From: a virus
Reading direction: 5' to 3' (one strand)
DNA: 64,000 nucleotides
Virus record (IMG/VR): IMGVR_UViG_3300047440_000139
Location: 1-64,000 of that record
How positions within the stretch are numbered: position 1 is the stretch's first letter; each line of letters starts with the position of its first letter. The position numbers and the translations under genes are program-made. Of this stretch, positions 14,656-22,730 are shown piece after piece. The notes under the pieces are model-generated. The model had not been told where the DNA came from and made no database searches. It worked only from the letters and a program-made list of their open reading frames with translations.

Positions 14656-14684
14656 TTGACATGCCGATAACAAAGTCGTATACT
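14656..14684 (+). promoter_or_regulatory. Strong sigma70-type promoter P1
   Basis: TTGACA (14656-14661), a 17-nt spacer and TATACT (14679-14684). The spacer and downstream ATACAGTT are nearly identical to the promoters at 21591 and 35031. Drives the small-gene chain from 14767. Confidence 0.88.
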
Positions 14685-14726
14685 TGGTATACAGTTAGGG
14701 ATTGTCCCTGAACTGGCCCCGGGACC

Positions 14727-14744
14727 GTTTACCCCGGGGTAAAC
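14727..14744. repeat. 18-nt palindrome, copy 6 (exact)
   Basis: An exact copy that begins 43 nt after the -10 of promoter P1 and ends 22 nt before the ATG at 14767, hence inside the 5' untranslated leader. Confidence 0.95.
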
Positions 14745-14766
14745 CCACCAAGGAGCCTTGAGCCAC

Positions 14767-14910
14767 ATGGCCAAGCACAGCGACTACCCGAAGGGCAAGA
14801 CCACCCACCGCGACCCGCAGCCCGCCCCCAAGGCGGACTGGAAGCGCGACCGCTGGGAACAGCGCAACGCCAAGACCATCGCCCGCCGCAACGTGACGGG
14901 GGGGTTCTGA
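14767..14910 (+). CDS. 47-aa basic peptide
   Basis: AAGGAG lies 12 nt before the ATG. MAKHSDYPKGKTTHRDPQPA ... RRNVTGGF is rich in Lys, Arg, Asp and Pro, probably disordered. First product from promoter P1, so likely expressed early and strongly. Function unknown. Confidence 0.65.
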   Translation: MAKHSDYPKGKTTHRDPQPAPKADWKRDRWEQRNAKTIARRNVTGGF

Positions 14911-15119
14911 TGTCCCTCGCCTACAGAAGCCTCGGCCACCAGCTGCAAGGCCGCTGGGTGAGCGCGCCGCTCGACGTGGACGTGATCCACACCGTGTACG
15001 AGCCCGGCGTGTTCGCCTACCTCGCCCTGGCCGACGGCAAGCCCGACGCCCACTGGCGTGCCCATCTGCTGTTCAAGCGGCAGGACGAGATCACCCAGGC
15101 CCGCCGGGAGGTGCGCTGA
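14910..15119 (+). CDS. Unknown 69-aa protein
   Basis: ATGA-coupled to the basic peptide gene. Beta-like first half (GRWVSAPLDVDVIHTVYEPG) and a charged helical tail (WRAHLLFKRQDEITQARREV), similar to part of the 10204 gene. Not recognised. Confidence 0.68.
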   Translation: MSLAYRSLGHQLQGRWVSAPLDVDVIHTVYEPGVFAYLALADGKPDAHWRAHLLFKRQDEITQARREVR

Positions 15120-15193
15120 TGCGAACCTGGGCCATCATCATCGGCTTCTGGCTGATCTGCTTCCTGATCGTCTTCGCGTCGAAGGGAGCTTGA
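15119..15193 (+). CDS. 24-aa single-helix membrane microprotein
   Basis: Overlaps the preceding stop (TGATG). The whole product, MRTWAIIIGFWLICFLIVFA plus SKGA, is essentially one transmembrane helix. Genes of this size are often missed; the coupling, length and hydrophobicity favour reality. Function unknown. Confidence 0.5.
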   Translation: MRTWAIIIGFWLICFLIVFASKGA

Positions 15194-15195
15194 CC

Positions 15196-15795
15196 ATGAG
15201 CAACGTCATCCCGTTCCCCCAAGGCGGGAAGTCCGCCATCGTGCGGGAGGCAGCTTCGGCTGCCTCCCTGCCGACCATCGAGCTTCCGATGGACGACAAC
15301 GACACCCATCCCCGCGACCTGACCGACGCTGCGCTGGCGCAGCACGTCGAGATGGCCAGGGATGGGGTCGAACTGCCGTACCTGCTCGTGGCCTACGAGT
15401 TCGAGGTGAGCCGCCGCGACGAGGCCGCCCTCGCCCTCCTGCGTGAGCAGGGGGAGCGGGAGGCGGCCGTTTACCCCGGGGTAAACGCCGTTGCCCCTCC
15501 CTACCCGCTCAAGGGTGAGACGTATCGCCAGTTCAAAGAGCGCCTGGATCGGGACTACCCGGATCGGTACATCGCCAACGGCCCTGCGGGGCCGAGCGAC
15601 GCCCGCAATCCGTGGTGGGTCGAGAACGGTCACATGTTCCGCACGCCGGACCCGGACGAAGTGCTGCTCAAGGACGACGACGACGACGACGACGACGACG
15701 ACGAGCCCAACTGGGACCCGGAGTGCGACTGCGGCATGTGTCTCGCCGCTGCCGACCGCTACCGCGCCGCCCGCAAAGCGAAGGAAGACATCTGA
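15196..15795 (+). CDS. Unknown acidic protein with poly-Asp run and embedded palindrome
   Basis: A 199-residue protein starting MSNVIPFPQGGKSAIVREAA. Residues 1-90 are helical. Residues 92-97 are VYPGVN, encoded exactly by a copy of the 18-nt palindrome. Then come a Lys/Arg/Pro region, a run of about 11 Asp, and a Cys cluster CDCGMC near residue 182. The palindrome in frame suggests either fusion of two genes at such a site or insertion of the repeat. Poly-Asp tracts can bind divalent metals or basic partners. Function unknown. Confidence 0.7.
   Translation: MSNVIPFPQGGKSAIVREAASAASLPTIELPMDDNDTHPRDLTDAALAQHVEMARDGVELPYLLVAYEFEVSRRDEAALALLREQGEREAAVYPGVNAVAPPYPLKGETYRQFKERLDRDYPDRYIANGPAGPSDARNPWWVENGHMFRTPDPDEVLLKDDDDDDDDDDEPNWDPECDCGMCLAAADRYRAARKAKEDI
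15469..15486. repeat. 18-nt palindrome, copy 7 (exact, inside a gene)
   Basis: An exact copy in frame in the acidic-protein gene, encoding Val-Tyr-Pro-Gly-Val-Asn. It is the only copy inside a well-supported coding sequence. Confidence 0.95.
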
Positions 15796-20934: not shown

Positions 20935-21116
20935 GGGGGAAGATCGCTGCCGTCCTGGCCGTCTACTTCGTGAGCCTGTTCGTCGGCTGGTATGTGCTCT
21001 GGCCTCGGGACTGCGAGACCGACACCGAGTGCTTCGTCACCCCGCCCTGCGTCCTCACCCCCGGGTGTGACGGCGGGCCGGACCCGGCGCACCAGCCGTG
21101 GGCGTGGCTGCCATGA
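20931..21116 (+). CDS. Small membrane-anchored Cys-rich protein
   Basis: 61 residues: a basic start and one transmembrane or signal-anchor helix (KIAAVLAVYFVSLFVGWYVL), then a short outside part with four Cys (RDCETDTECFVTPPCVLTPGC). It could be periplasmic-facing with disulfides. ATGA overlap with the previous gene. Function unknown. Confidence 0.62.
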   Translation: MRGKIAAVLAVYFVSLFVGWYVLWPRDCETDTECFVTPPCVLTPGCDGGPDPAHQPWAWLP

Positions 21117-21349
21117 CGTGGTCCATCGACGAGGCGGTGCTGATCGCCCTGGCCACGCAGCAGGGCCACGACCTGCAACCCTGGAAGCCGTTCGCTACGT
21201 CGGCGGGCCGCGCCCAGTGCGTGTTCTGCGAGCGGCTCTACAGCATCAGCCGCCGGGCGCTGGCCGCTCGGGGGGTGGTGGAGTGGGATCAGGAGGGGAC
21301 GGCCAACCGTCCTGACCAGTTCGCCCGCTGTCGGGGGAAGCCCGGATGA
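21113..21349 (+). CDS. Small CxxC protein, tandem paralogue A
   Basis: 78 residues from ATG 21113: MTWSIDEAVLIALATQQGHD, then CVFC, RRALAARGV and DQFARC. The next gene has the same framework (MTWS, VLxA, GH, CxxC, N-x-x-x-F-x-x-C), so the two are tandem duplicates. The three Cys plus His could form one zinc site. Start chosen at the ATG shared with the paralogue's N-terminus. Confidence 0.68.
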   Translation: MTWSIDEAVLIALATQQGHDLQPWKPFATSAGRAQCVFCERLYSISRRALAARGVVEWDQEGTANRPDQFARCRGKPG

Positions 21350-21570
21350 CGTGGTCCTTCCGTGAGCAGGTACTGCTGGCGGGCATCCGCAAGGCTGGTC
21401 ACCAGCCGGAGGACGACCGCGACGAGGGATGGGCGGTGTGCGCCCGCTGCGGGGTGGCGTGGTTCGTCAAGCGCAGGGCGCACCTCGCCGACCTGAGCCG
21501 TGAGAACCGGGTGCTGATTGACGGCATCCACTGGGACAACCCGACCGACTTCGGCAAGTGCCAGCCCTGA
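21346..21570 (+). CDS. Small CxxC protein, tandem paralogue B
   Basis: 74 residues: MTWSFREQVLLAGIRKAGHQ, CARC, RRAHLADLS, PTDFGKC. ATGA-coupled to paralogue A. It ends the operon just before promoter P2. Function unknown. Confidence 0.7.
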   Translation: MTWSFREQVLLAGIRKAGHQPEDDRDEGWAVCARCGVAWFVKRRAHLADLSRENRVLIDGIHWDNPTDFGKCQP

Positions 21571-21590
21571 ACCCAGGACGTGTCCCCCTC

Positions 21591-21619
21591 TTGACATGCC
21601 CATAACAATAGTGTAGACT
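21591..21619 (+). promoter_or_regulatory. Strong sigma70-type promoter P2
   Basis: TTGACA (21591-21596), a 17-nt spacer and TAGACT (21614-21619). Shares CTTGACATGCC, ATAACAA and ATACAGTT with P1. Positioned to drive the MoxR/DUF3150/VWA genes. Confidence 0.87.
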
Positions 21620-21663
21620 AGAATACAGTTGGAGATCGGCTCCAGCTGCACCCCACCCCCGGC

Positions 21664-21681
21664 GTTTACCCCGGGGTAAAC
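21664..21681. repeat. 18-nt palindrome, copy 9 (exact)
   Basis: An exact copy that begins 45 nt after the -10 of P2 and ends 17 nt before the ATG of the MoxR-type gene. Confidence 0.95.
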
Positions 21682-21698
21682 CAGACGAAGGACACCAC

Positions 21699-22730
21699 AT
21701 GAACCCCAAGCTTTTCATCGAGACCGCCGTGGCCCGCATGGACCACCAGCGCACCACCGGCAGGATCATGTCGCCGCTGCTCCTGCTGGCCCAGCCGGGC
21801 GTCGGCAAGACCAAGTGCGTGGAGCAGGCGGCGGCCAAGGCAGGCGTCGGCTACATCCACATCCACGGACCGGCCATGCCCGCCGAGGACTTCGGCGTCC
21901 CCGTCCCCGTGCCTGAGAACGGCTCGCTGGAGTTCTTCATCCCGCTCGGGAAGTTCCCGTTCGAGGGCGACGACACGCACCCCGAGTTCGGGATCATCAA
22001 CATCGACGAACTCGCTGGCATGAACAACGACCAGCAGAAGGTCGTGGCCAACATGATGCAGGAGCGGGAACTGCACGGCCGCAAGCTCAAGCCCGGCTGG
22101 CTGTTCATCTGCACCGGCAACCGCCAGGAGGACCGGGCCGGGGCCAACCGCATCCTGTCGCACCTCAACGACCGCTACATCACCATCCACTTCGAGACCA
22201 AGACCGACGACACCATCGAGTGGATGCTGCAGAACGGCGTCCGGCCGGAGGTGATCGCCTTCCTGCAATGGCGATCCGACCTGATCGCCCCGCCCTTCGA
22301 CCCGAACATCGAGAAGAACCCGACGCCTCGGGGCTGGGCCGAGCGGGTCAGCCCTGAGATCGCATGCAACCCGAAGGCGGCGCTGTTCGAGGTGATCAAG
22401 GGCGCGGTCGGCGAGGGCGCGGCGGTCGAGTTCATGGCCTTCAACGACACCTTCATGTCGCTGCCCGATCCCGATCTGGTGCTGGCCAAGCCGGACACCT
22501 TCCACGTCCCCGACGAGGCTCACATCCTGTACGCCCTGATCGGTGCGCTGATCGCTCGGGTGAAGGCCGACACGTTCCCGGCGTTCATCACCTACGTCAG
22601 CCGGATGCCGCCCGAGTTCATGGTCATGGCCATGCGGAACGCCATCACCGCCCACGGCCAGCTGACCCAGACCAAGGCGTTCACGTCCTGGGCCGGGACC
22701 GCTGGGGCCAAGGCCCTGTTCAGCCGCTGA
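21699..22730 (+). CDS. MoxR-type AAA+ ATPase
   Basis: A 343-residue AAA+ ATPase. Walker A AQPGVGKTK (G34-T38), Walker B IINIDELAG (D103, E104), a sensor-1-like CTGNR near residue 143, and a C-terminal helical lid. MoxR proteins are chaperone-like ATPases that typically work with a VWA-domain partner to remodel or activate a client. Here a DUF3150-like and a VWA-like gene follow on the same strand, each with its own palindrome. AAGGACACC precedes the ATG. No membrane segment is seen; cytoplasmic. Confidence 0.87.
   Translation: MNPKLFIETAVARMDHQRTTGRIMSPLLLLAQPGVGKTKCVEQAAAKAGVGYIHIHGPAMPAEDFGVPVPVPENGSLEFFIPLGKFPFEGDDTHPEFGIINIDELAGMNNDQQKVVANMMQERELHGRKLKPGWLFICTGNRQEDRAGANRILSHLNDRYITIHFETKTDDTIEWMLQNGVRPEVIAFLQWRSDLIAPPFDPNIEKNPTPRGWAERVSPEIACNPKAALFEVIKGAVGEGAAVEFMAFNDTFMSLPDPDLVLAKPDTFHVPDEAHILYALIGALIARVKADTFPAFITYVSRMPPEFMVMAMRNAITAHGQLTQTKAFTSWAGTAGAKALFSR

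Follow-up and report, generated by a model that had tools for sequence, protein, structure and literature searches.

Dispersed, phage-specific palindromes as probable stoperator-like operators in a soil phage

The soil phage of IMG/VR virus record IMGVR_UViG_3300047440_000139 carries an 18-letter palindrome, GTTTACCCCGGGGTAAAC, at twelve places in the stretch analysed here (positions 1 to 64,000, hereafter the window, which is most of a 64,623-base record). These palindromes are probably dispersed, stoperator-like operators for a phage-encoded and presumably dimeric regulator, which would serve chiefly as a roadblock or premature stop. The sites are symmetric, dispersed, specific in sequence to each phage and fixed in half-site spacing. 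Their arms show no RNA-type compensation, and their sequence correlates with that of a candidate regulator, the product of a gene at 7365–8141. From comparison of sequences we infer binding, dimerisation, roadblocking and timing in infection.

A dispersed palindrome, private to each phage

Ten copies of the palindrome in the window are exact and two carry one mismatch (T2 to A, giving GATTACC..GGTAAAC), while 0.02 would be expected by chance at three mismatches. All twelve lie within 7.3–36.7 kilobases (kb), the rightward-transcribed half of the window (Table 1). By our own gene model, 11 of the 12 are intergenic, compared with 14.5% of the region (p=6e-9). Only two follow closely on a sigma-70-like promoter.

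A sequence-only reading of the same DNA had proposed that the palindrome lies at a fixed distance from promoter and start codon. The distances that it gave are correct. The copies at 14727 and 21664 start 43 and 45 nucleotides (nt) past the -10 hexamers of promoters P1 and P2. Seven copies lie 17–24 nt ahead of the next start (24, 20, 22, 22, 22, 17 and 20 nt for 7323, 9171, 13570, 14727, 17202, 21664 and 23921, respectively), and those at 22734 and 36609 lie 37 and 36 nt ahead. The rule itself, however, is overstated. Three of the twelve copies do not fit it, being situated after a terminator (8199), before a GC hairpin (12003) or inside a coding sequence (15469), and at homologous sites the distance varies among relatives, at about 20–30 nt. 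Most intergenic gaps in the window are short anyway.

Relatives were collected with two queries. The ATPase gene behind P2 retrieved four near-complete relatives with 74–84% protein identity (loci L005–L008, here genomes G001, G002, G003 and G010), and the portal retrieved 60 loci, most of them partial. Relatedness of the portal protein is 40% to Rhizobium phage RHph_TM3_14A and about 27% to HMO-2011-type phages (27% to HMO-2011).

An unbiased scan for gapped palindromes, covering all 6-nt arms and every gap from 0 to 12, returned one dominant palindrome with a single gap length in each close relative. In the window this is TTACCC-2 (left arm and gap; 12 copies), which is equivalent to TTTACC-4 in the ten exact copies. 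The near-complete relatives have ATTGCT-4 (G001, 6 copies), ATTGCC-4 (G002, 11), ATTGCC-3 (G003, 8) and ATTGCA-3 (G010, 11). Dominant palindromes in partial genomes are ATTGCG-4 (G008), ATTGCA-3 (G009), ATTGCC-3 (G011) and GGTTAA-4 (G004), and those of more distant relatives are TTAACT-2 (L039 and L057) and TTTACC-1 (L053, 10 in the whole record). In RHph_TM3_14A (L210, MN988472.1), GTTACCT-4-AGGTAAC occurs in about 37 copies at up to three mismatches, 5 of them perfect, with 0 in permuted controls. These copies are spread over the first 45 kb, many of them within the genes for DNA polymerase, helicase and primase. The RHph_TM3_14A record also annotates an attL inside its ATPase gene.

A cross table of six phages against six palindromes is perfectly diagonal, and the same gene junctions across relatives carry each genome's own palindrome. 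Consequently, the exact 18-mer was found in no other contig of the viral collection, since every phage has its own version. A near-DNA search of isolated phages with window positions 14500–22700 gave no match.

Repeated palindromes also occur in HMO-2011 (L211), with AGTCCG-4 in 3 copies (60, 1261 and 1926), and in CRP-1 (L213), with GTCCAA-2 in 4 copies (429, 1059, 2228 and 6868). Most of these copies are close to the first early genes, and HMO-2011 copies 60 and 1261 and CRP-1 copy 1059 are each preceded by AT-rich inverted repeats.

DNA site, RNA stem or promoter

Very probably, the palindrome is recognised as DNA, in a sequence-specific way, by a protein that the phage encodes. Within six genomes, arms deviate at 52 positions, of which 3 are compensated, 11 give G-U pairs and 38 are broken; the mismatch limit of this count slightly disfavours compensated pairs but still admits them. 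Deviating arms are thus almost never compensated, which points to a two-fold DNA site rather than an RNA stem. In G002, the arms are identical in 11 of 11 copies, and the four central bases vary freely while their number stays constant. A dimeric DNA-binding protein would need this combination of invariant half-sites, fixed spacing and a free centre.

The sequence-only reading had considered that the spacing would fit an RNA-level role as well as a roadblock operator. As an RNA element, the palindrome would be a 7-base-pair (bp) leader hairpin acting in mRNA stability, processing or translation. This would suit its place in the P1 and P2 leaders and shortly ahead of seven start codons, and also the joint variation of the two arms from genome to genome (helix 2). 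Moreover, the copy at 36609 caps a long hairpin that is conserved across five genomes. At that conserved position, 7–9 bp of extra stem surround the operator in all five, and terminator-like stem and operator coincide. Against an RNA element stand the uncompensated deviations within genomes and the folding of the P1 and P2 leader RNAs of the window, in which the palindrome hairpin is not the minimum-energy structure; there the right arm pairs with upstream sequence of the CCCCGGG type. Copies are also found after terminators and within genes, above all among the roughly 37 across RHph_TM3_14A, and invariant arms with a fixed gap need recognition of sequence, not pairing alone. An RNA-level role, which these results do not support, is most unlikely. 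The operator half of the earlier proposal is well supported, by arms that are invariant per genome, a free centre of fixed length, a phage-private palindrome and the correlation of its type with one diverging phage protein.

The leaders do contain a different element that behaves as an RNA structure would. This is a hairpin, distinct from the palindrome, with which both the P1 and the P2 transcript are predicted to begin; it is conserved in five of five genomes, with both sides changed in 5 of 9 pairs. In G001 it differs between the genome's own two promoters, with T-A at P1 and G-C at P2. It is these compensatory changes between promoters and genomes that make the hairpin RNA-like, and it might possibly serve in transcript stabilisation or as a put-like antiterminator.

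P1 and P2 are themselves conserved in the four near-complete relatives, and the palindrome between promoter and ribosome-binding site differs in each. The palindromes could instead be promoters in their own right, whether hairpin promoters of the N4 type, used by a phage RNA polymerase, or sites at which a phage sigma factor or activator acts. Many copies do lie shortly upstream of ribosome-binding sites, and phage-specific promoter sets would be expected to co-vary with a phage polymerase or factor. However, P1 and P2 provide sigma-70-like promoters of their own just upstream, and copies occur inside genes and directly ahead of a terminator-like hairpin. Furthermore, no RNA polymerase-like protein was seen among the scanned proteins, the 2867-amino-acid (aa) protein of the window matching DarB-like families. 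A search with PF00940 gave no match, but its positive control was equally silent and it is not used as evidence. Promoter function is improbable.

The palindrome was also rejected as a part of the sigma-70-like promoters. A third such promoter (P3), TTGACT-17-TATACT at 35031–35059, has counterparts in G002 and G003. It retains the start ACAGTTGG and has neither an operator palindrome nor a full 5' hairpin. Having no operator, P3 would escape control.

The candidate regulator and its proposed mode of action

The gene at 7365–8141 is the first of the rightward early region and lies between an operator on its upstream side (7323) and, downstream, a terminator followed by a further operator (8199). 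Syntenic homologues are present in the relatives (alignments A1 and A2) and are flanked by operators in most. Those of L039 and L057 were found with the A1 profile (4e-7 and 2e-5, in a small comparison set). In L009 near 4.9 kb and L015 near 1.8 kb, near-identical terminator hairpins (CCGAGCCCATGGGCTCGG) stand in tandem between operators beside the regulator gene.

The candidate has diverged rapidly, with a mean identity of 33% compared with 75% for the terminase. Across ten genomes, operator distance correlates with candidate identity (rho -0.59, Mantel p 0.0004, ranging over 0.0004–0.004 with registers and subsets). The partial correlation given terminase is also significant (p 0.001), and the correlation with candidate identity is stable without the outgroups or the least certain register. 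No significant correlation was obtained for the terminase, the portal, the early neighbours 9209, 9950, 10763 and 13610, or three other proteins, each present in at least six genomes. Among the proteins tested, operator type as judged from sequence tracks the 7365–8141 product alone. For example, G002 and G008 have terminases that are 97% identical, candidates that are 34% identical, and different operators, a pattern that joint replacement of regulator and sites would produce. The product of 7365–8141 is likely to be the binder. A second protein, encoded at 8703–9158 in AT-rich DNA with operator 8199 on one side and 9171 on the other, has a ribbon-helix-helix-like N-terminus; it was rejected as the binder, being present only in the window, G001 and G006.

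The palindromes might alternatively be bound by a host transcription factor, as with CtrA in alphaproteobacterial phages, or serve as centromere or nucleoid sites for a protein of partition or silencing. Regulation through host CtrA sites has been shown for some phages (PMC9437464), and TTAA lies within the half-sites of L009 and L039; the genome-wide dispersal in RHph_TM3_14A would suit silencing. On the other hand, the window site TTTACCCCGGGGTAAA does not contain TTAA-N7-TTAA, and the sites are phage-private and track a phage protein rather than the backbone. A ParA-type ATPase (PF13614), as partition would involve, was not found in G000–G003, G010 or RHph_TM3_14A, records that may be incomplete. 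Host-factor, partition or silencing sites are unlikely.

For operators of a phage-encoded regulator, the following sequence of events can be proposed. The product of 7365–8141 would bind the two-fold symmetric operators, probably as a dimer. The bound protein would then block elongation by host RNA polymerase just past early promoters and between co-directional genes, and early genes would be shut down as the regulator accumulates. The regulator gene is itself flanked by two operators and is therefore probably autoregulated. The operator begins about 36–39 nt inside the predicted P1 and P2 transcripts, too far downstream for a direct block of polymerase binding. Most other copies have no recognisable promoter and lie between co-directional genes, which fits a protein roadblock on elongation. 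Roadblocking may well be the main mode of action.

Several points weigh against this proposal. The candidate has no recognisable DNA-binding domain. It gave no Pfam, PHROG or PDB fold match, and AlphaFold modelling reached moderate confidence only (mean predicted local distance difference test, pLDDT, 72; predicted template modelling score, pTM, 0.48), two models giving a mostly confident N-terminal helical half and no structural relative. The case for its binding thus comes from covariation and position and not from any recognised domain. The correlation comes from ten genomes, and few other proteins can be compared across six or more. In RHph_TM3_14A, which has about 37 degenerate copies, the syntenic protein has no detectable homology to the candidate; the same is true of the first early genes of CRP-1, HMO-2011 and N3_19. 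The RHph_TM3_14A copies within genes are compatible not only with roadblocks but also with packaging or genome-wide silencing. In addition, a symmetric site allows no orientation bias such as mycobacteriophage stoperators have. Finally, integrase, resolvase and ParA families (PF00589, PF00239 and PF13614) are absent from the six genomes searched for PF13614 above, with the same limit on their completeness; as no lysogeny genes were found, the need for repression is not obvious.

Table 1. Positions of palindromes, promoters, hairpins and the candidate regulator gene in the window
Feature	Position	Strand	Remark
Operator palindrome upstream of candidate regulator gene	7323..7340	+	Exact copy; homologous sites in G002, G010; also upstream of homologue in L039/L057
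Candidate regulator, 258 aa, helical (predicted)	7365..8141	+	Flanked by palindromes; identity tracks operator type
Intrinsic-terminator-like hairpin ending regulator gene	8157..8183	+	
Operator palindrome just past the regulator's terminator	8199..8216	+	Exact copy; same layout in G001, G002, G003, G010, L039, L057
Operator palindrome	9171..9188	+	Exact copy
Operator palindrome, one mismatch (GATTACC), then GC hairpin 12021-12046	12003..12020	+	
Operator palindrome	13570..13587	+	Exact copy
P1, sigma-70-like promoter TTGACA-17-TATACT	14656..14684	+	Same promoter in L005-L008
5'-end hairpin of P1 transcript (CAGTTAGGGATTGTCCCTGAACTG)	14692..14715	+	Stem kept via compensatory changes
Operator palindrome downstream of P1	14727..14744	+	Exact copy
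Operator palindrome inside coding sequence (open reading frame 15058-15795)	15469..15486	+	Exact copy
Operator palindrome	17202..17219	+	Exact copy; homologous site in G001, G002, G003, G010
P2, sigma-70-like promoter TTGACA-17-TAGACT	21591..21619	+	
5'-end hairpin of P2 transcript (CAGTTGGAGATCGGCTCCAGCTG)	21626..21648	+	Stem kept via compensatory changes
Operator palindrome downstream of P2, ahead of AAA ATPase gene 21699-22730	21664..21681	+	Exact copy
Operator palindrome, one mismatch (GATTACC)	22734..22751	+	Homologous site in G002, G003, G010
Operator palindrome	23921..23938	+	Exact copy
Terminator-like hairpin, 16 bp, T-rich tail	36600..36635	+	Tip is operator palindrome 36609-36626 (exact copy)

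Other genes were observed in passing. Window positions 12123–12800 encode a protein of secreted type with a PEP-CTERM sorting motif at its end (PF07589, E 1.8e-6), with partial similarity in L030 and L005. The 2867-aa protein is encoded on the minus strand at 39859–48462, and its C-terminal part is related to DarB-like antirestriction proteins (phrog_10089). The lineage's terminase, portal and four other structural proteins also occur in L215 (CALXQR010000002.1), a 303.9-kb contig of a Burkholderiaceae metagenome-assembled genome, as a prophage or a misbinned phage.

Described systems and implications

By analogy, the closest described system is that of the stoperators of cluster A mycobacteriophages, and the resemblance is functional. 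Phages of this cluster (L5, Bxb1 and Trixie) carry 20–30 repressor sites genome-wide, mostly in short intergenic spaces and few at promoters, and each phage has its own consensus and its own repressor, which diverge together (PMC6550527, PMC9283540). Their stoperators are 13-bp, asymmetric and oriented with transcription, and are bound by a monomer with helix-turn-helix and stoperator domains; the phages are temperate. As in cluster A, the near-identical sites described here are dispersed in short intergenic spaces (11 of 12) and mostly promoterless (2 by promoters), and their sequence co-diverges with a phage protein, here that of 7365–8141 only. Site numbers are 6–12 per near-complete close relative and about 37 in RHph_TM3_14A. 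Unlike the mycobacteriophage stoperator, the site is a perfect palindrome, neither asymmetric nor oriented, and the candidate has neither a recognisable helix-turn-helix nor a stoperator domain. Unlike the temperate cluster A phages, those examined here yielded no integrase, resolvase or ParA, in records that may be incomplete. Membership of the cluster A stoperators thus fails on tested features, namely the symmetry of the site, the lack of a recognisable domain in the candidate and the absence of detected lysogeny genes.

The conserved inverted repeats (CIRs) of Streptomyces phage phiC31 are also similar to the palindromes described here. They are near-identical, lie between early genes, some of them by promoters, and are bound by the phage repressor. 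However, phiC31 belongs to an unrelated phage group, and is temperate with an integrase. HMO-2011-type phages are structural relatives, as judged from the portal, and likewise carry repeated palindromes near their first early genes. Unlike the phage described here, HMO-2011 and CRP-1 have fewer copies and a tyrosine integrase. The text of the main comparative paper on the HMO-2011-type group contains no words beginning with palindrom, repressor or promoter (PMC9038755). Reports of such repeats in these phages were not found in the literature searched, whose coverage excluded most subscription journals.

The comparison alone yields a concrete site–protein pair for a widespread uncultured phage group. 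In each related phage a particular form of the site goes with a particular form of the protein, much as in phages with separate immunity systems. It is a tentative possibility that an undescribed family of phage regulators, together with its palindromic operators, forms an interchangeable specificity module in phages that apparently have no lysogeny genes, so that virulent phages would have immunity-like groups. If so, a phage already resident would, through its regulator, shut off early expression in a competitor of the same type and spare a close relative with a different operator. This raises the question of why operator specificity changes so fast in phages without visible lysogeny genes. 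Because RHph_TM3_14A is an isolated Rhizobium phage and carries about 37 copies of its own palindrome, the site side of the pair can be tested in the laboratory. Should the proposal be true, stoperator-like control would reach beyond the temperate phages of actinobacteria and into HMO-2011-related podophages, where it would act through symmetric sites and a new protein family.

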